Below, in pieces: positions 25,658 through 34,185 of a DNA stretch of 34,556 nucleotides. The stretch covers positions 1 through 34,556 of IMG/VR virus record IMGVR_UViG_3300044639_001522. One strand, 5' to 3'. A model generated the notes under the pieces. The model saw only the letters and a list, made by a program, of their open reading frames with translations, did no database searches and had not been told where the DNA came from. Numbering within the stretch: position 1 is the first letter of the stretch; each line of letters starts with the position of its first letter. The DNA is from a virus. A program made the position numbers and the translations under genes.

Positions 25658-27589
25658 TTAGAAGGTCTTTCTTCCTGTTCTACCGGACCCTCTTCTCAAG
25701 AATGATTCGTTTCTTTTAATCTGCGACCGACGAGATGGATCGTCATTGTTGAATGCCGCATGCGTGTAGATTCTAGCTGAAGATATATTAGGATTGTGAT
25801 CAGCCGCTGCTGCTCGAGGTTGAGGAACCCCTTTTGCTGCAGGACCCTCTATTCGGCTAAGTGCCTCTCCTAGACTTTGCGGTGGTTTGTTTATATTCCC
25901 ATCCCCAAAGCTACCCGAGAACGAAATCGTCCCATTGTATGATGGCTTAATGAAATCTGATGTTTCCATCTGGAAAGCAAGCAATGCGAGCATTACTCCA
26001 TCCAGATCGTGATCTCCATCTGTTCCTGCAACGTAGATAGGAACACCCGATGCATTTACTCGCGCAATCTGGTATCCAATCAGCTGACGGAACAAAACTT
26101 CATCATAATAAGAGAATTTAATATTACCCTGCTCGAATCTTCTAACTGCATTCTCAACTAAGTAAGGCTTCATCGGCTTACCGACTACTGCACCTGTTAT
26201 AGGATCATGAACGTCAACTTTACTGGAGAAATTAATACCTACAACTTCGGCTAGGTTGGCGTCGACTCTTGCGTGCTCATGCTGAGCCCCTTTTGCATCA
26301 AGCCCAAAACGCTTAATGACCTCGACTTGCATTGCGCCATAACCAGCATCAACGTAAACATACGCTGGCTGCCATACTCTGTTTAACTCTATTATCTTCT
26401 GAATTGCAGCAGTTTGAGTCCATCCAACTTTTTGAACAGTCTCTTTTGCCACAACCTTAAAGAAACCGTCTCTTGGGTTCCACGAAAGTACAGCAATCTT
26501 TGTTCCATTAACAAGATCGTTCCAGTCCACTCCGATAGAGTATACACATTCCGGATCTCTGAATTCGTGCTCATATCTATAGTCTGATCTGGCTGCATGT
26601 ACGTAAGCATACTGAAATACAGAGGTCGTTGCTTCTCCGAACTCTGCTAGAATCTCATGTTGCCATCCTGCTTCCGTATTATAGAATTGCCGCAACTCCT
26701 GCTCCATCGTGATACTCCACGACGGGTTAAACATAGAGGTAAAATGGAATTCTTTGAAATCCATCCTTTCACGGCAGAACTGATAAAAGTAATCCCTTCT
26801 TCCAGTAGGCGTAGACGCGCAAACCAACTCCACATCGGCGTGCTCCATGATTAGGGCAACTATGTTTTCAATTGAACCTTTATCTAAGTAGTCCATCTCG
26901 TCCAATACGATTAAGTCGGCTTTCTGACCTCGTACAGACTCTGCGCCTTTTGCTCCGGCTGAGAATCCTACAACCTTAGCTCCAGACTTTAGTTCTATTA
27001 AGTGATAAGGAGTTGAAATGCTTCTGTTAATTTCTGCATTAAGATCAGGATTGAGCTCAATGAGCTCGCGCATCCTGTTAAATAAGTTTTTAACCTGAGA
27101 CAAGAAGGGAGTGAGCACTAGTGTCGTCCCGAAATCCGGAACCCATTCTTTTAGATTTTCATCATATCTTTGTGACTTAGGAGAGTGAGTATAAAGGAAG
27201 TGGAGAATCTTAATAGCAAGAACATCGGTCTTACCTAATCGTCGACCCCATCTGTATACTTTTCTTTTTGAACTGCATCGAAGAGCTAGAGCTTGATACT
27301 CTGTTCCATCTTTGCCTTTTCTTGGTCGCCACTTTAGATGCTTCCATGCCCACGCGATCGGGTCATATATGGTTTGTGCAACTTCTAGTTCTTCTTTTGA
27401 AATTTTCTTAGCTATTTGATCGTATTTGGGTACGAACTTATCGTCGCCAGGGATACCCTGACAGTTAATAATGAAGTCTCCGGACGTAAACACTGGCATT
27501 CCAGTGATCTCATCCATTGGTCCTTCTTTATCGGCAACACGGGTTTTCTGACACCCCTTGCAATACTCATGCAGGACTTTGCAACTCAT
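25658..27589 (-). CDS. terL: Terminase large subunit (DNA packaging ATPase/nuclease)
   Basis: A 643-residue protein with a full terminase layout. The Walker A-like motif is RWGRRLGKT (113-121). Walker B is LIVLDE (226-231, D230 and catalytic E231). The coupling motif is CASTPTG (257-263). The nuclease domain begins GVDWN (D355), with a second acidic residue at VYVDAG (D414) and a third in the DGDHDLDG segment (524-531, D528 or D530), all as expected for an RNase H-type terminase nuclease. It pumps DNA into the prohead through the portal and cuts the concatemer. The N-terminus carries an extra C10-x2-C13 pair (HEYCKGCQK) not needed for the motor. It follows the glycine-rich array and precedes a promoter. 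Confidence 0.95.
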   Translation of the reverse strand: MSCKVLHEYCKGCQKTRVADKEGPMDEITGMPVFTSGDFIINCQGIPGDDKFVPKYDQIAKKISKEELEVAQTIYDPIAWAWKHLKWRPRKGKDGTEYQALALRCSSKRKVYRWGRRLGKTDVLAIKILHFLYTHSPKSQRYDENLKEWVPDFGTTLVLTPFLSQVKNLFNRMRELIELNPDLNAEINRSISTPYHLIELKSGAKVVGFSAGAKGAESVRGQKADLIVLDEMDYLDKGSIENIVALIMEHADVELVCASTPTGRRDYFYQFCRERMDFKEFHFTSMFNPSWSITMEQELRQFYNTEAGWQHEILAEFGEATTSVFQYAYVHAARSDYRYEHEFRDPECVYSIGVDWNDLVNGTKIAVLSWNPRDGFFKVVAKETVQKVGWTQTAAIQKIIELNRVWQPAYVYVDAGYGAMQVEVIKRFGLDAKGAQHEHARVDANLAEVVGINFSSKVDVHDPITGAVVGKPMKPYLVENAVRRFEQGNIKFSYYDEVLFRQLIGYQIARVNASGVPIYVAGTDGDHDLDGVMLALLAFQMETSDFIKPSYNGTISFSGSFGDGNINKPPQSLGEALSRIEGPAAKGVPQPRAAAADHNPNISSARIYTHAAFNNDDPSRRSQIKRNESFLRRGSGRTGRKTF

Positions 27590-27607: not shown

Positions 27608-28099
27608 CTATTCGCCCTTTCTTTCTCTTGCGGCTTCCATTTGAAGGGCTCTCTGATTCTGCATTTGACGTATGTTCTCTTGGACGATCATTGCTTTTCT
27701 TTTAGTATCATACTCTAATCTTTTCGTATAATCAACACTTGGCGTTCGATTCGATTTAAGTGTTGCCATCCCCATCCCAATTCCGGCTCCTGCCAGGGCA
27801 CCTATTGCCATATTCTTGCCAGACATTGATCCGCCCTTGCCTAGTGCTCCAGCAAAAGCAGAGGCTCTTCCTTTCATTCCGGATCCAGCCATTCCAGCCC
27901 TAAAGGCGGCAGGCAAACCTTTTCCAAATTTAGCACCAGCCATTGCTGCCATTCCTGCGGCTGCTCCAATTCCTGCGCCAGCGCCTATCTGTAGCGAACT
28001 TCCCATATCATGCTTATTGTATGCAGCAACACCCCCGCCAACTACTGCTGCGCCACCGGCTATTTTTGCTGCATTTCTTATTGAATCCATTCTGCTCAT
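27608..28099 (-). CDS. Gly/Ala-rich glycine-zipper-like protein, array member 7
   Basis: A 163-residue protein. Residues about 8-110 are Gly/Ala/Met-rich with GxxxG spacing (GGAAVVGGGVAAY, GAGAGIGAAAGMAAMAG, GALAGAGIGMGMATL), compatible with membrane-inserting or tightly packed helices. The C-terminal 50 residues are charged and helical (RLEYDTKRKAMIVQENIRQM ... ERKGE). A segment ATLKSN matches the weak hinge motif of the array. The Shine-Dalgarno AAGGGG (just after the preceding stop region) precedes ATG at 28099. The last gene before terminase, it forms one operon with the array. The function is unknown; an internal, ejected or membrane-active virion protein is the likeliest guess. Confidence 0.5.
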   Translation of the reverse strand: MSRMDSIRNAAKIAGGAAVVGGGVAAYNKHDMGSSLQIGAGAGIGAAAGMAAMAGAKFGKGLPAAFRAGMAGSGMKGRASAFAGALGKGGSMSGKNMAIGALAGAGIGMGMATLKSNRTPSVDYTKRLEYDTKRKAMIVQENIRQMQNQRALQMEAARERKGE

Positions 28100-28109
28100 C
28101 TAAAACCCC

Positions 28110-29030
28110 TTAAATCCTGGCGCCATTTATCGTACCCTGTTTCACCCATTCTCCGGTTCCTTTTGCTACATCAATCCCCGCCTTGCTTGCATCCTTGCCG
28201 ACCTGGAAATATCCGCCTTTATCTTTAACAGCTTTATGGAAACCGACTCCAGCCTGTTTGGCAAAATTAAATGCTTGTTTGCCCGTTATCCCTGCGGCGC
28301 GAGCAGCCTGAATGCCCTTGTACATATTCTGACCACCTATGTATCCATACTTTAGTGCAGCCATCTTCATCATTCCAGTCGTGGCGCTACCGTAGTCTCC
28401 GTCAGCAATATTCTTTCCTACAACTCCAGCCTCATAGGCTCCGTATCCAGTTACTGCAGTCGCGAGCATGTCGCTTCCTGAAATATTCTTGAAGTTACCC
28501 TTCATTGTACTTTTAATTGTGTTAATTGCAGGTGTCGTTAAGTGGCTCGATACACTATCTAGTGCTGCTTCCCCAATAGACCCGGCTATAAAGACAGCCC
28601 TGTCCATAGCGGTGCCATTTTGTGATATCTTTCTAAATGCAGCAGTATTTTTGCTTTGAACACCCCGTATCTCTTTAATAGCTTTAGATGAGTTTAATTT
28701 AACTCCCGCTTGTGCTAATTCGATAGAGCTATTGGGATTTTTTAAAACACCCGCCGCAGCACCCATGACATCGCCCATTGCTTCAGCTTTGGTTGCAGAA
28801 GAAGCTTTGTGAAAGCCATAAGTATCCTTAATGTTTCCCCATCTTTTTACTCCCCATGAAGCACCAGCACCAACAGCAGCACCAGCAATAGCTCCGCGCA
28901 TCGCTCCACTTCCGGCATTCTCTCCGGTGACTCCACCGTATAATCCACCAACAGCAGCGCCAGCGGCTGCATACTTTGATGGTCCCCACGTCTTCATGCT
29001 TGAGGTAATGGCATTAAATGCCTTATTCAT
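28110..29030 (-). CDS. Gly/Ala-rich glycine-zipper-like protein, array member 6
   Basis: A 306-residue protein with GxxxG-rich hydrophobic stretches at residues 21-60 (AAAGAAVGGLYGGVTGENAG and following GAIAGAAVGAGASWG) and 185-240. The hinge motif is seen twice, KAFNAITSSMK at the start (3-13) and PAINTIKSTMKG inside (167-178). The C-terminal third is Lys/Gly/Ala-rich and amphipathic (QAFNFAKQAGVGFHKAVKDKGG). The internal copy suggests the gene is a fusion of two smaller units. The start overlaps the HNH gene by four bases (ATGA). No enzymatic motif is visible. The family was not recognised. Confidence 0.5.
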   Translation of the reverse strand: MNKAFNAITSSMKTWGPSKYAAAGAAVGGLYGGVTGENAGSGAMRGAIAGAAVGAGASWGVKRWGNIKDTYGFHKASSATKAEAMGDVMGAAAGVLKNPNSSIELAQAGVKLNSSKAIKEIRGVQSKNTAAFRKISQNGTAMDRAVFIAGSIGEAALDSVSSHLTTPAINTIKSTMKGNFKNISGSDMLATAVTGYGAYEAGVVGKNIADGDYGSATTGMMKMAALKYGYIGGQNMYKGIQAARAAGITGKQAFNFAKQAGVGFHKAVKDKGGYFQVGKDASKAGIDVAKGTGEWVKQGTINGARI

Positions 29031-29374
29031 TTACTTCTCCTGAGACTTACTTTTTTAATTCGTTTCTTAGCCTTATTCTTTTTGGCTAACTCTTGAAACT
29101 CTTTAACGAACTTCTCCGCCCCTTTCTTATGCACATATTCATGCATGTACTTTCTTAACGTTATTCCGTTGCTAACCTCGAATATTAATTCTGGGTTTTC
29201 CCACTTTGAAACAATATGATGGGCTTCTAAATGCCCGCCAGCATCATTTGATAACTGACATACGAATCTATCTCTTTCAAAAACCTTCTGTCTCCATTTG
29301 ATATACATCTTGTCTGTATATATGGATCCATCATTAATCATGGCGCGAATTTTTTCTTTTTCGCTTTCGGTCAT
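29027..29374 (-). CDS. HNH endonuclease, zinc-cysteine-poor variant
   Basis: A 115-residue protein with a clear HNH core: WRQKVFERDRFVCQ (27-40), LEAHHIVSKWENPEL (49-63, H52/H53), FEVSNGITL (N69), and a final H78-x3-H82. HNH nucleases cut DNA at a metal-bound beta-beta-alpha site. The usual zinc cysteines are mostly missing: only C39 remains of a CxxC (C39 then S42), and the ITLCxxCH pair reads R74 and M77. A lysine/arginine-rich tail follows. It overlaps both neighbours by four bases inside the glycine-zipper operon, three genes upstream of terminase. HNH proteins beside terminases can help packaging (as in HK97 gp74). It could also be a homing nuclease, but no intron is seen. Confidence 0.8.
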   Translation of the reverse strand: MTESEKEKIRAMINDGSIYTDKMYIKWRQKVFERDRFVCQLSNDAGGHLEAHHIVSKWENPELIFEVSNGITLRKYMHEYVHKKGAEKFVKEFQELAKKNKAKKRIKKVSLRRSK

Positions 29375-30282
29375 TCTTCGCCTTTCTTGCCGCCGAATGC
29401 ATATTGCAATCCGAACGCTGCCCCGGCTGCAGGTAATGACTCTGCAAAATCAATCCCTACAGACTTGGCTAAATCTTTTCCGGACATCTTCTGTAGACTT
29501 CCAGCTTTAGCAGCTGCTTTAGCCAACTCAGGGGACCCAACATAAGAGTCTATATATTTGGCTGCTCTTGGGTTGTTGTTAAGAAACTTATTCGCCTTCC
29601 TGATTATAGACCCCTCGAGACCAGGCGCATTCATTTTGTCTGTGCCTCTAACAGCCTCAGTAAGGTCAGTATAAAATCCCTTGCCTATGTCTTTTTTAGC
29701 AAACGCACTAGGGAATATTCCCCTTACGGTTTTGAATCTTTGTATCTCAGATGCTTTTTCCCATGCGCTCATTCCAGCTTTATTGGATTTCAAAGTGGCA
29801 AAGCTTTTATTAAAATGTTTACCAATCTTCATTAAGTCATCATATGCCAACCCTCCTTTCACAAGAGAGGCAGAGGCAGCAGAGGCACCGAGAGAAGTGG
29901 CAACAGAAGCCACTGCCAAACTCATTGTACCATTCTCTGTTGCTTTGGATGCTCCTAATCCGGCAATCGAACCAGCGGCGAAGCCAGCCATTGCCCCTTT
30001 GGCGCCCCACTTATATCCGAACTGAGCACCAGCAGTTCCAAGTGCAGAAGTTGTAACACCACCAACGAAACCACTTTTCCAATCGTCTGCGGCTAACGCA
30101 CCGACTCCTCCCATTACAAGGGAGCTAGCCATGAGCTTGCCGGTATTTGTACTTTTGACGCCTTCAATAGCAGCGATACCCATGAGCTTTCCGTAGTTGC
30201 CCAAAGCTTCCAGTCTATTACCGGCTCTTGATGCTTTGTCGGCTGAACTCATCAGTTTATTGACGTTTTCTGGAAAACTCAT
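29371..30282 (-). CDS. Gly/Ala-rich glycine-zipper-like protein, array member 5
   Basis: A 303-residue protein. Residues 45-140 are hydrophobic with many GxxxG and AxxxA steps (MASSLVMGGVGALAA, AGFAAGSIAGLGASK, VASVATSLGASAAS), consistent with several tightly packed or membrane-embedded helices. Residues 158-170 (NKSFATLKSNKAG) resemble the array hinge motif. The remainder is helical, charged and Ala-rich, ending FGLQYAFGGKKGEE. The Shine-Dalgarno AGGGAT precedes ATG at 30282. It overlaps the HNH gene by four bases. No recognised family. Its low complexity means composition-driven similarity must be treated with care. Confidence 0.5.
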   Translation of the reverse strand: MSFPENVNKLMSSADKASRAGNRLEALGNYGKLMGIAAIEGVKSTNTGKLMASSLVMGGVGALAADDWKSGFVGGVTTSALGTAGAQFGYKWGAKGAMAGFAAGSIAGLGASKATENGTMSLAVASVATSLGASAASASLVKGGLAYDDLMKIGKHFNKSFATLKSNKAGMSAWEKASEIQRFKTVRGIFPSAFAKKDIGKGFYTDLTEAVRGTDKMNAPGLEGSIIRKANKFLNNNPRAAKYIDSYVGSPELAKAAAKAGSLQKMSGKDLAKSVGIDFAESLPAAGAAFGLQYAFGGKKGEE

Positions 30283-30290
30283 TTTTATCC

Positions 30291-30932
30291 CTAGTTGTGC
30301 ATTAGCATGGCTTCGTTACCAAGCCCGCCCGCGTTTAGTTGACTAGTTCCGCCACCCAGTCCGGTGCTATTAAGCCTAGCCATCTGGGACGAGGTTGCTC
30401 TCATTGAACTTTGTGATTGTTTTACGCTTTGAGTTCCTGCTCGTTGTCTATCAGTTGTTTTACCAAAAGAATCCATTGCCGAAACAACGCTTGATCCAAC
30501 AGTTGGACCGCCAAGCATTGCAGAGACTATGTTAGCAGCTCCAACAAATGACCCGATTACCGGAATGGCAAACAATCCAGCATCAACGGCATTGGATGTT
30601 CCAACTTTTGCAATTTCAGTCATTCTTGAATCATGAACGGAAGCATCAAAGCTTTCGTTACCCATATACATAGCAATACCGACTTCGAAAGCCGCCCCTA
30701 TGCCAAAAGCACCAGTGACTTTATTCGCCGTTTTACCCGCAAGGGCGCCAGCTTTGTTTATGCCAGGTTGTATGTTGCGACCGAATTGATTACCAACGCC
30801 AGCATACCATTTGGTTGCTTTGCCCGTGGCAGTAGCCCCCGCAACGGAAGCATTGAGTGCGTGCTTAGCGAGACCGAATGCACCCGGAGCGGATTTATGA
30901 AGATTTCTTATCCCTGCTATTCGTCCTTGCAT
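30291..30932 (-). CDS. Gly/Ala-rich glycine-zipper-like protein, array member 4
   Basis: A 213-residue protein. It has two hydrophobic Gly/Ala stretches: about residues 70-92 (GAFGIGAAFEVGIAMYMGN) and 115-145 (AVDAGLFAIPVIGSFVGAANIVSAMLGG), the second long enough to span a membrane. The N-terminus is basic and helical (RIAGIRNLHKSAPGAFGLAKHAL). The C-terminus (from about 165) is Ser/Gln/Arg-rich and disordered, ending GLGNEAMLMHN; a Gly-Leu-Gly-x-Glu-Ala-x-x-x-His ending is one I associate with phage structural proteins, though weakly. The hinge motif was not seen. An AT-rich 68-base gap precedes it. Confidence 0.45.
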   Translation of the reverse strand: MQGRIAGIRNLHKSAPGAFGLAKHALNASVAGATATGKATKWYAGVGNQFGRNIQPGINKAGALAGKTANKVTGAFGIGAAFEVGIAMYMGNESFDASVHDSRMTEIAKVGTSNAVDAGLFAIPVIGSFVGAANIVSAMLGGPTVGSSVVSAMDSFGKTTDRQRAGTQSVKQSQSSMRATSSQMARLNSTGLGGGTSQLNAGGLGNEAMLMHN

Positions 30933-31000
30933 TCTTGCTCTCCATTGACTCTAACTACGCGAAATTTTTAATTTTTATTTTTTTGACACAGTATATCGAT

Positions 31001-31249
31001 CTATTCGTCTCCTGAAAGACCCCATGCTGTCGCACCTACGCCAGCCGCAGCACCACCACCGTACATTGCTAATCGCTTACCACCAATGTCTCTCATTAGA
31101 TCTCTTCCGGCAGTCTTTAAAGTTGAGCCGATCTTTCCACCGCCAGCCAGGTTGCCCATTGCCGCACCATACGCTCTACTAGCAGCCATTCCATCGTGCT
31201 TTAATGTGGATTTAATTGCGTTGACTGCTGATGTCATCTTGGCTTTCAT
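31001..31249 (-). CDS. Gly/Ala-rich small protein, array member 3
   Basis: An 82-residue protein that begins with the hinge motif SAVNAIKSTLKHDG (7-20) and continues with Gly/Ala-rich helices (RAYGAAMGNLAGGGKIG and LAMYGGGAAAGVGATAWGL), the last of which could span or enter a membrane. Its Shine-Dalgarno (AAAGGGG) is made by the final Lys-Gly-Val codons of the gene before it. It is only 3 bases from that gene. The function is unknown. It looks like a mirror image of members 1 and 2, which carry the same motif at the opposite end. Confidence 0.5.
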   Translation of the reverse strand: MKAKMTSAVNAIKSTLKHDGMAASRAYGAAMGNLAGGGKIGSTLKTAGRDLMRDIGGKRLAMYGGGAAAGVGATAWGLSGDE

Positions 31250-31252
31250 AAT

Positions 31253-31576
31253 TTATACCCCTTTAACCGTAGACTTGATCGAGTTAAATGCCTTATTCGC
31301 TTTTACTGCACACCCGAAAGCCATGCCCCCGAGTTGACCTTTTCTTGCCGCTTGCATTGCAGACATTGCTGGTCTATTTATTTTATTAGCAATACTTCTA
31401 GCGCCAGCGCCCATAGCACCAGTTGATGCCATTAATGCGGCAGCCCCTAAGCCTGGTCCGAATATCCCACCTCTATCCTGGGTGCCAAATGCGTAATCTA
31501 AACCAACGCCTGCTGTAACGCCGACTGCAGTAGCTCCGCTATGTCTAAATAGTTGTTTTGTAAATCCCTTAAGCAT
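31253..31576 (-). CDS. Gly/Ala-rich small protein, array member 2
   Basis: A 107-residue protein. Residues 12-60 are Gly/Ala-rich and hydrophobic (GATAVGVTAGVGLDYAFG and GIFGPGLGAAALMASTGAMGAGA). A basic helix (SIANKINRPAMSAMQAARKG) and the terminal hinge motif KAFNSIKSTVKGV (95-107) follow. It is 18 bases downstream of member 1, with an AAGGAGGG Shine-Dalgarno. The zipper spacing suggests homo-oligomers or membrane pores, but this is inference from composition. The family was not recognised. Confidence 0.5.
   Translation of the reverse strand: MLKGFTKQLFRHSGATAVGVTAGVGLDYAFGTQDRGGIFGPGLGAAALMASTGAMGAGARSIANKINRPAMSAMQAARKGQLGGMAFGCAVKANKAFNSIKSTVKGV
31259..31291 (-). repeat. Hinge-motif repeat, gene end of array member 2
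   Basis: About 33 bases encoding AFNSIKSTVKG at the C-terminus of member 2. At nucleotide level it closely matches the end of member 1 (31598-31630): both contain GCATTTAA near the start and a final AAAGGG. The AAAGGGG also serves as Shine-Dalgarno for the next gene. Confidence 0.6.
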
Positions 31577-31594
31577 ATAACGCCCTCCTTATCT

Positions 31595-31948
31595 CTACCC
31601 TTTAATCGTGGACTTGATTTTATTAAATGCGCCATTAGATGCAATTGCCGACCTTTTCATTGTCTGCATTCCGTAACGTTTAGCCAATGCCATGCCGCCA
31701 CGGTTATATGCATTATACATTTTATATGCGCCATAACCTGCGGCTCCACCGAGCGCACCCATGATGCCGCCCTTGAGCGCCCCACCTAACGCACCTACCG
31801 TGCTTCCAATGATCCCATCTCCACTTCTGTATCCGTCAATGCCTCCGGCAACTTGACCCGCTGCAGAAGTTAATAAAGAAGCCTTAAGATAAGGGTTGCC
31901 CTTGGTTGCATAATGCAGGTTGCTTTTGAAATTTCCCAAAAATGCCAT
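31595..31948 (-). CDS. Gly/Ala-rich small protein, array member 1
   Basis: A 117-residue protein. Residues 27-75 alternate Gly/Ala with hydrophobic residues (AAGQVAGGIDGYRSGDGIIG and ALGGALKGGIMGALGGAAGYGAYKMY), a classic GxxxG zipper. It ends with a basic helix and the hinge motif AFNKIKSTIKG (107-117). It is the first array gene after the Cys-motif gene, and a 104-base hairpin-rich leader precedes it, ending with two SD-like sites (GAGGAGAGG, then AGGAG before the ATG). The role is unknown. No signal peptide is seen, so if it is membrane-active, insertion would be direct. Confidence 0.5.
   Translation of the reverse strand: MAFLGNFKSNLHYATKGNPYLKASLLTSAAGQVAGGIDGYRSGDGIIGSTVGALGGALKGGIMGALGGAAGYGAYKMYNAYNRGGMALAKRYGMQTMKRSAIASNGAFNKIKSTIKG
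31598..31630 (-). repeat. Hinge-motif repeat, gene end of array member 1
   Basis: About 33 bases encoding AFNKIKSTIKG immediately before the stop of member 1. It is paired with the copy at 31259-31291. Further copies by amino-acid motif lie at 31190-31231, 28986-29024, 28497-28532 and, weaker, 29773-29811. Confidence 0.6.
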
Positions 31949-32052: not shown

Positions 32053-32859
32053 TTAATCATCATCTGATATATCAATAATCGTTAACTTCTCGATTGTTGA
32101 TCTCATATCGGACGCTGCGGTAGATACTGATGCCGGACCAACTGTCCCCATAACCGCATCTCTCTTGTATTTTTCTTTCCGCGTGCCCACTAATGATTCT
32201 AACAGATTCTTCCTCCAGCGCCAAGCGCGCTCGATGATATTGAAGGCAGGGTGTTCTTGAAGTTGTATAATGGGTTCCTCGTCGCTATTGAAACCCACTA
32301 CGTTCTTTATCAGACCGTCTGGATTCTCATTCTCGTCTTTCCCCAATAGGATGAATGCCCTCATTTCCATAACATGCGTCGATGCTAGCATTGTCATAGT
32401 CGTTACCTCGGACATTGCGTCAGATTTAACGTCAAATTCGTCGATATATCGTTTCGTGTATTGATCTAATAGCATCCCTTCTATCGGACAGGGTTTTCCT
32501 TCCGGCACTCTTCCCAACTGCTGATGAAGAGGACATTGAAGTTTGAATGGGCATTTATCCCCATAGCATGTAATGGGCATGGAAGCCCTTAAGCCAGATG
32601 ATAACCTTTTAACACCTTGTGTGACGTTCTTCTTTTCTTGTTCCGTTAGGGTAAAACCAGCAGGGAGGTAATTGTCGATAATAGGAGTGAGTCCACCGTC
32701 ATAGAATTTGGATGGGACAAGTCCCTCTCCTTGTGGCGCTAGATTGTGCAGTGCTTCCTCTTCTTCGGGTAAGCCATCAAGTAATTGGTCAATAGTTGAA
32801 CGAGTAAAGTTGCTATCCAATTCTTCTACGCTTTTCATTGCCTGTTTCTTAACTTTCAT
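32053..32859 (-). CDS. Cys-motif packaging-region protein, possible small terminase-like protein
   Basis: A 268-residue protein, the first gene of the late operon. Residues 98-126 hold C98-x4-C103-x5-C109-x14-C124 (CYGDKCPFKLQCPLH ... GKPCPIE), a four-Cys pattern that could bind zinc or an iron-sulfur cluster; similar CP-rich segments occur in uncharacterised proteins near terminases of large phages. The C-terminal half is helical (MLLDQYTKRYIDEF, then EHPAFNIIERAWRWRKNLLESLVGTRKEKYKRD), a basic helical region suited to DNA or terminase contact. Small terminase subunits often precede terL, but here seven array genes and HNH lie between. The Shine-Dalgarno AAGGAT precedes ATG at 32859. The small terminase role is a weak inference. 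Confidence 0.5.
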   Translation of the reverse strand: MKVKKQAMKSVEELDSNFTRSTIDQLLDGLPEEEEALHNLAPQGEGLVPSKFYDGGLTPIIDNYLPAGFTLTEQEKKNVTQGVKRLSSGLRASMPITCYGDKCPFKLQCPLHQQLGRVPEGKPCPIEGMLLDQYTKRYIDEFDVKSDAMSEVTTMTMLASTHVMEMRAFILLGKDENENPDGLIKNVVGFNSDEEPIIQLQEHPAFNIIERAWRWRKNLLESLVGTRKEKYKRDAVMGTVGPASVSTAASDMRSTIEKLTIIDISDDD

Positions 32860-33606: not shown

Positions 33607-34185
33607 ATGAAAAAGATTACTGTTGAAGAATGCATTGCTTTAGTGTCTTCCGTCCTTGGTGTAGAGGAAGCTAATAGATATAGTAATCATATTGCACGAT
33701 TGCAAGATGTTACTGTTGCTGTTTCTTCATCTGGTGTTATCTGTGTTTTATATACAGATGATGGTGGTAATTCTTCTGATTTTGAGATTCATCTCATTCC
33801 TAAAAAGATTTATGTTGATGTCGATGGAACGTTATTAAATGGTTCATTAGATTCTAAATTTAAAACGATGGTATCTGAAGTTGGATTTGAGAAAACATTG
33901 TCTTGGTATAACGATTGTAATGTTAATGATTTGAGTGTGAATATGGAGTTAATTAATGAGTTAATTACGTTAAGGGAATTTGGTTATGTATTAGTACTAT
34001 GGACTAATAGAGGGGAATGTCAGAAGAAGATGACTAAGGAGAATCTTGGTGTGTATTGGAATATGTTTGATAGTCATGAATTTCATGACGGTAAGAAAGG
34101 TAAGTGTGTATTGGATGGAATGGTATATGACAATGAGAGTAAGTACTTGGCTTGTGGTGTTATGGGTAAGTTGATTAGTTTCTAG
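33607..34185 (+). CDS. HAD-superfamily hydrolase/phosphatase with an N-terminal extension
   Basis: A 192-residue protein. Residues 1-65 form a small N-terminal domain with no recognised match (HIARLQDVTVAVSSSGVICVLYT). Residues 67-192 are a compact HAD domain: motif I YVDVDGTLL with nucleophile D71 and acid D73, motif II LWTNRG (T133), a Lys-rich motif III (DGKKGK, 161-166), and motif IV VYDNES (D175 to E177). HAD enzymes dephosphorylate small molecules, nucleotides or proteins through an aspartyl phosphate. There is little cap domain, so the substrate may be a macromolecule or be exposed. The Shine-Dalgarno GAGGAG precedes ATG at 33607. Codons are strongly AT-ending, unlike the late genes, which suggests different timing or origin. 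Confidence 0.75.
   Translation: MKKITVEECIALVSSVLGVEEANRYSNHIARLQDVTVAVSSSGVICVLYTDDGGNSSDFEIHLIPKKIYVDVDGTLLNGSLDSKFKTMVSEVGFEKTLSWYNDCNVNDLSVNMELINELITLREFGYVLVLWTNRGECQKKMTKENLGVYWNMFDSHEFHDGKKGKCVLDGMVYDNESKYLACGVMGKLISF

Follow-up and report, generated by a model that had tools for sequence, protein, structure and literature searches.

A conserved cassette of glycine/alanine-rich genes adjoining the terminase gene in a lineage of large contractile-tailed phages

Introduction

Why should a phage carry a row of seven glycine/alanine-rich (G/A-rich) proteins next to its packaging gene? This question is raised by IMG/VR record IMGVR_UViG_3300044639_001522 (positions 1 to 34,556), a fragment of a large contractile-tailed phage; its whole length of 34,556 bases was analyzed and is referred to here as the window. 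The late operon of the window lies on the minus strand and has the order Cys-motif gene, W1–W5, HNH endonuclease gene, W6, W7 and terminase large subunit gene (TerL), where W1 to W7 are the G/A-rich open reading frames (ORFs) numbered along transcription, W1 adjoining the Cys-motif gene and W7 adjoining TerL. An earlier note, made from the letters of this DNA, had described seven such genes in one operon with a single HNH gene interposed; all of them were present, closely packed on the same strand, and most of the seven were preceded by a Shine-Dalgarno-like sequence. We found that W1–W7 form a coherent, conserved and hitherto undescribed late-gene cassette beside the packaging gene. This conclusion is well supported, and literature searches found no paper on the cassette genes. 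The cassette spans a lineage of large contractile-tailed phages that includes Bacillus phages 0305phi8-36 and KLEB27-3, Acinetobacter phage ME3, Moorella phage MTATph1 and many uncultured relatives.

Linkage of the cassette to TerL

The closest TerL relatives from isolated phages are distant, with MTATph1, ME3 and KLEB27-3 at 31–33% identity. In KLEB27-3 and MTATph1, where the gene order was read directly, small G/A-rich ORFs lie between the Cys-motif gene and TerL, together with a PhoH-like gene in MTATph1. A profile scan of IMG/VR with TerL gave 80 loci, 46 of which had at least 2.9 kb of upstream sequence. At least one G/A-rich ORF was located just upstream of TerL in 45 of these 46 relatives, and at least two in 39, the 46 not amounting to 46 independent lineages because some loci are near-duplicates. 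Within 5 kb downstream of TerL, no G/A-rich ORF was found at any of 58 loci. The start of TerL is sometimes overlapped by a cassette ORF in relatives. A second scan, in which TerL was not used, was based on the C-terminal signature of the W4-containing family A (MRQRSL..NARSALGNEA). It detected 79 viral loci, some duplicates included, and all 79 had TerL directly downstream on the same strand, at a median gap of 196 bases; many also had the Cys-motif gene upstream. Besides, only three of the approximately 245 ORFs in the whole KLEB27-3 genome had a Gly+Ala fraction of at least 0.24, and these three were the cassette. At the same cut, a 198.6-kb relative (G002) showed only the family A protein and one large protein of 1121 amino acids. 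The window itself has the features that mark the TerL-linked cassette of the 0305phi8-36-like lineage, i.e., an adjoining TerL of the same clade on the same strand, the Cys-motif gene upstream and a family A protein, W4.

Two further arrangements were observed. In another subgroup of relatives, a G/A-rich protein resembling family D (described below) and ending in a C-terminal RGFNxxRGN was located directly downstream of TerL rather than upstream (L131 8744-9487, L136 5822-6511, L159 6657-7709 and L165 5403-5798; L numbers denote loci of relatives). A scan of genomes for family A yielded a single orphan gene, in the Lederbergia panacisoli chromosome (L099 9683-10138), which had no TerL nearby and is apparently a phage remnant.

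Protein families marked by their ends

Cassette proteins could be grouped into families that are recognized mainly by short terminal signatures. Family A has a hydrophobic hairpin followed by a C-terminal TMRQRSLxxxxxSxxNARSALGNEAxLMH. W4 was assigned to it by profile comparison of its C-terminal 50 residues (87.5%, E=3.6e-6) and by a BLAST match to L008, the version of the signature in the window being degenerate and carrying an insertion; the 546-residue protein directly upstream of TerL in ME3 also ends in this signature. Family C has an N-terminal AFNxIKST and, in relatives, a C-terminal ADFLNPWGLGWGD, and W3 is a reduced member. Family D comprises G/A-rich ORFs near TerL in relatives, with a Gly-zipper hairpin, an SDDTS turn and a C-terminal ANKAYxKIRG. 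W1 and W2 are paralogous (34% identity, E=6e-5) and match the family D profile across 60 columns, motif included (83.8%). Families B and E end in GLVQGLHxGRHG or LNASGDIVLGMHNxRxG, and the alignment between families E and KB is confined to the final 26 residues (94.4%). W7 has positional counterparts in L006–L009, and no clear relatives of W5 and W6 were found beyond the shared motif.

This motif, AFNxIKSTxKG, had been proposed in the earlier note to recur at gene or module boundaries across the cassette. To avoid circularity, we built a position-specific matrix solely from instances in other phages and then scanned the window with it; shuffles of each protein and the 25 other ORFs of the window, the best of which scored 8.5 bits, served as controls. 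Each motif site in W1, W2, W3, W5 and W6 scored 14.5–25.1 bits with a shuffle P of at most 0.001 (Table 1), and the positions given before agreed with the matrix sites to within about 12 bases. The recurrence thus holds for five of the seven proteins, twice in W6, and in weak form for W7, whose site scored below the best control; the scan found no such motif in W4. W7-like proteins have GYSTLNSN (L007), GYSTLSSN (L008) and TYASLSSN (L009). In related phages the motif is kept as an N-terminal MNKAFNAIKSTL in L007 and L008 and as GFNTVKSN near the N-terminus in L011, L015 and L037, and family D proteins carry it C-terminally. Therefore, the main outcome that would have spoken against the earlier description, a lack of motif conservation in related phages, falls away. 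Among relatives that were not used for the matrix, 11 of 199 G/A-rich ORFs and 17 of 1143 other ORFs scored at least 10 bits, indicating that the motif is not universal and belongs to the closer relatives of the window and to families C and D. The accompanying idea that units were duplicated and fused or split at the motif is consistent with the W1/W2 paralogues, the two copies in W6 and the N- or C-terminal location of the motif depending on family. A common ancestry of all seven does not follow from this, since a family D hairpin model matched above the protein's own composition only in W6 (P=0.014) and W1 (P=0.04); its matches to W2, W5 and W7 did not exceed composition.

Composition and hydrophobic segments

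All seven proteins are clearly set apart by composition, with a Gly+Ala fraction of 0.31–0.40 against 0.10–0.21 in the 25 other ORFs of the window, and with 2.8–7.7 GxxxG per 100 residues against at most 1.3. They are also all basic (net charge +6 to +19), and the surrounding structural proteins are mostly acidic. When the number of GxxxG was compared with shuffles of each protein, an excess over its own composition (P<0.05) was found for W1 and W6 only. The strong signal is therefore the G/A-rich composition and the motif, not zipper spacing throughout. Composition accounts for most of the GxxxG density, and the term "zipper", applied in the earlier note to all seven, mostly describes this composition; the G/A-richness was borne out in every member, and a significant GxxxG excess over composition was not seen in the five others. 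The hydrophobic segments are rich in Gly, Ala and Ser and of modest hydropathy (maximum 19-residue mean 1.0–1.9), which fits proteins that are stored in soluble form and enter a membrane when needed better than it fits classical holins.

Searches against Pfam and PHROGs gave no useful match for the cassette families, which are essentially absent from both; the exception is the hydrophobic region of tail lysin/tape-measure families, to which some family A relatives showed matches (phrog_1047, lowest E=1e-9; phrog_167). None of the window proteins significantly matched the phrog_1047-type tape-measure hydrophobic domain. W6 matched Gly-zipper_Omp at E=8e-4, below the Pfam cut-off; the scores for the glycine-zipper families PF13488 and PF13441 were under the gathering cut-offs (19.7 vs 25 and 16.5 vs 28.9, respectively). 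Two other candidates were set aside. A match of L038 to phrog_6056 ("internal virion protein") was weak, missed the T7 record and was also obtained in Bacillus subtilis, and matches of the family D profile to influenza HA2 (E 0.06–1), which has a glycine-rich fusion peptide, were considered to be due to chance.

Table 1. Genes and motif sites of the cassette and its borders in the window.
Feature	Position	Strand	Remarks
Cys-motif protein	32053..32859	-	Upstream cassette boundary; conserved together with the cassette
W1, G/A-rich, 117 residues	31595..31948	-	Gly-zipper segments, then C-terminal NGAFNKIKSTIKG; paralogue of W2; family D profile match
W1 motif, C-terminal	31604..31636	-	20.1 bits, shuffle P<0.0005
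W2, G/A-rich, 107 residues	31253..31576	-	C-terminal NKAFNSIKSTVKGV; paralogue of W1; family D profile match
W2 motif, C-terminal	31265..31297	-	25.1 bits
W3, G/A-rich, 82 residues	31001..31249	-	Family C-like by alignment: N-terminal AxNxIKST, C-terminal WGL(x)D
W3 motif, N-terminal	31202..31234	-	14.9 bits, P=0.0005
W4, G/A-rich, 213 residues	30291..30932	-	Family A; two hydrophobic segments; C-terminal signature ending LNAGGLGNEAMLMHN
W5, G/A-rich, 303 residues	29371..30282	-	Several charge-free segments; motif mid-protein
W5 motif-like site NKSFATLKSNK	29779..29811	-	17.2 bits
HNH endonuclease	29027..29374	-	PF13391 above cut-off; phrog_119 E=2.7e-11
W6, G/A-rich, 306 residues	28110..29030	-	Motif and Gly-zipper hairpin (19-60), then second motif and weaker second hairpin
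W6 motif, N-terminal, NKAFNAITSSM	28995..29027	-	21.2 bits
W6 second motif TPAINTIKSTM	28503..28535	-	14.5 bits, P=0.001
W7, G/A-rich, 163 residues	27608..28099	-	Adjoins TerL; similar ORF at equivalent place in close relatives
W7 weak motif GMGMATLKSNR	27746..27778	-	8.2 bits, P=0.0135; below best control (8.5)
TerL	25658..27589	-	Terminase large subunit; lineage marker; phrog_2 E=4e-30

Neighboring and inserted genes

TerL is followed in the window by genes that we infer, from their order and length, to encode portal, capsid, sheath and tube-like proteins. The Cys-motif protein shows the pattern C-x4-CP-x4-CPL-x9-13-CPIE (in the window, L003 2355-3041 and L005 9104-9940). Homologues occupy the equivalent position in KLEB27-3 and MTATph1, and throughout the lineage the gene is conserved along with the cassette and TerL; its product may be a packaging or regulatory protein that binds metal. 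In ME3 this gene (L002 4078-5373, ME3_9, annotated as RNA methyltransferase) has an apparent intein-like insertion starting from a motif cysteine (CLTGDTL...NHPF). TerL genes of 2.4–3.8 kb were observed in L003, L102, L106, L130 and L147, and their alignment consensus shows intein-like blocks.

The HNH ORF inside the cassette is probably a mobile passenger. HNH or GIY-YIG-like endonuclease ORFs enter the cassette at differing positions, for example at 29027-29374 in the window, L006 490-1449 and L007 2568-3565, and further endonuclease ORFs were observed within it at L009 8532-9448, L011 2441-2959 and L037 9421-9939. Because such ORFs enter repeatedly and at different positions, the data suggest that the neighborhood of TerL is a homing hotspot. 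Just upstream of the cassette, some relatives have a large ORF that carries a DnaQ-like exonuclease motif (FDxETxG) and often a G/A-rich part (L013 2330-5947, L037 5005-8043 and L033 843-7094, among others); several of these ORFs have GHHRM-like tails, and that of L037 has a family B-type tail. PhoH-like ATPase genes were located within or adjoining the cassette at L005 10331-11155, L032 8089-9324 and L038 8066-9349. A forward gene beside the late operon of the window (33607-34185, plus strand) has a close relative at a comparable location in the 198.6-kb relative (L010 6374-6571), where it is likewise opposite in orientation to the late operon.

Possible functions of the cassette

We tentatively prefer, at somewhat less than an even chance, the explanation that the cassette encodes low-copy virion proteins with Gly-zipper membrane segments, which are docked by their terminal motifs, ejected with the DNA and open the cell membrane. 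The proteins would be carried at low copy in the virion, probably in the head beside the DNA, and their positively charged parts may contact DNA or packaging proteins. The terminal motifs (AFNxIKSTxKG and the NARSALGNEA, ADFLNPWGLGWGD and GxIVxxMHNxRxG tails) may serve as docking tags, by which several unlike proteins are brought together on a single assembly. Once the tail has contracted, the proteins would exit before the DNA or along with it; their moderately hydrophobic G/A-rich hairpins may then insert jointly into the cell membrane for genome passage. Several observations argue for this proposal: the tight linkage to a packaging gene (45/46 relatives and 79/79 signature loci), the confinement of high-Gly+Ala ORFs to the cassette place in KLEB27-3, the basic nature of all seven proteins among mostly acidic structural proteins and the resemblance of some family A relatives to the tail lysin/tape-measure hydrophobic region. 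Docking tags are suggested by the recurrence of terminal signatures on otherwise dissimilar proteins; short conserved ends around variable middles would fit a division of labor in which the ends serve as addresses and the middles work on membranes that differ. Besides, there are two precedents. The GxxxG zipper of Tde1, a protein delivered by the type VI secretion system, is needed for membrane permeabilization (PMC10240207), and gp14 and gp16, two ejection proteins of T7, rely on predicted transmembrane helices, channel-forming ejection proteins being established in short-tailed phages (PMC8954989). It is a works-like argument, combining basic, moderately hydrophobic G/A-rich hairpins, late genes beside the packaging motor, the pattern of conserved ends and these two precedents, that leads us to prefer virion-carried, ejected membrane proteins.

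Several points weigh against this proposal. Contractile tails are usually thought not to need a separate ejection channel, and genes so placed next to TerL could also serve in packaging or assembly. Solved-structure searches with the family profiles returned nothing meaningful and no solved homologue. AlphaFold models, structure prediction being a check that the earlier note had suggested, were obtained but were too poor for a fold search (predicted local distance difference test, pLDDT, 53 for W1 and 48.5 for W4), the C-terminal signature of W4, modelled as a helix, being the only part of that protein to exceed 70. We rejected homology to T7 gp14, as every family compared with six gp14 proteins gave an hhalign probability below 1%.

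A more specific form of the proposal, which we regard as possible but doubtful, is a multi-protein "zipper" ejectosome, in which varied Gly-zipper hairpin proteins with interchangeable terminal tags would be gathered at one virion site and jointly open the cytoplasmic membrane. If so, long contractile tails would not do the whole job of DNA entry alone. It is not settled how DNA gets across the cytoplasmic membrane once a contractile tail has penetrated the outer layers, and the cassette provides named candidates, a conserved set of membrane-type proteins adjoining the packaging gene throughout a broad and ancient phage lineage. Should the terminal motifs be docking tags, they would also provide short address labels with which proteins are loaded into the heads of large phages.

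The strongest alternative, in itself unlikely, is that the proteins are membrane-associated assembly or packaging factors, which bring the prohead, portal or terminase to the inner membrane while heads are assembled or DNA is packaged and are absent from the virion or minor in it. The position next to TerL in nearly every relative, with the occasional overlap of its start, and the co-conserved Cys-motif gene would fit such a role. However, gene order often tracks assembly without proving it, and the number and sequence of members vary much between phages, which is more like delivery proteins facing different envelopes than like an invariant assembly machinery. It is less probable still that they are minor head, neck or portal proteins, such as an inner body or plug, whose G/A-rich helices pack mutually rather than on lipid and whose motifs are assembly contacts. 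This alternative would account for the modest hydropathy, the terminal motifs common to different proteins and the W4 signature being the part modelled above pLDDT 70, but not readily for hydrophobic parts that differ widely in length and sequence while the ends are kept, nor for the resemblance of relatives to tape-measure/tail lysin families. Late host-takeover membrane proteins, i.e., holin-like lysis or superinfection-exclusion proteins, are very improbable: the proteins are small, hydrophobic and several per genome, and ME3 has a lysozyme gene nearby, but their hydropathy (maximum 1.0–1.9) is under that of typical holins, the conserved neighbor is TerL and not endolysin in 79/79 loci, and no Pfam or PHROG family was matched. 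Least probable of all is that these are unrelated low-complexity proteins of mostly compositional similarity. This would agree with the lack of significant GxxxG excess in five of seven and with the hairpin matches to W1 and W6 only, but for families A, C and D it is largely refuted by specific terminal motifs kept across distant phages and by the fixed genomic location; the least supported members are W5 and W6.

Comparison with known systems

The cassette proteins differ from holins in their low hydropathy and in having TerL, not lysis genes, as the constant neighbor. Residues 19-56 of W6 and a few relatives resemble the Pfam glycine-zipper families PF13488 and PF13441 at the below-threshold scores given above. 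Some family A relatives resemble the hydrophobic region of tape-measure/tail-associated lysin proteins (phrog_1047, phrog_167), whereas the cassette proteins are short, separate and adjoin TerL. For Tde1 (PMC10240207), the likeness is a works-like precedent limited to the GxxxG feature, and no DNase domain was found in the cassette proteins of the window. T4-type internal proteins have an N-terminal capsid-targeting peptide that the prohead protease removes; in the cassette, the AFNxIKSTxKG motif is found at either end of the proteins. The likeness to T7 gp14, gp15 and gp16 is one of idea, i.e., an envelope channel built from a number of internal virion proteins, of which some have hydrophobic helices. 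Sequence and profile comparison, which covered gp14, revealed no similarity; the gene position is different and the phage of the window is contractile-tailed.

The closest counterpart is the packaging region of 0305phi8-36, ME3, KLEB27-3 and MTATph1, with the same order of Cys-motif gene, G/A-rich ORFs and TerL as read directly in KLEB27-3 and MTATph1 (in ME3 recognized by the 546-residue protein). In 0305phi8-36, p113–p116 lie between p112, a Cys-motif homologue going by the ME3 annotation, and p117, the TerL gene. The window has more members, seven, which are hardly alignable to those of isolated phages except for W4, W3 and W1/W2, and these align to metagenomic relatives. In the isolated relatives the cassette genes are annotated as hypothetical or membrane proteins. 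Whatever their function, the terminal signatures are useful markers, by which such hypothetical genes can be sorted into four or five families.

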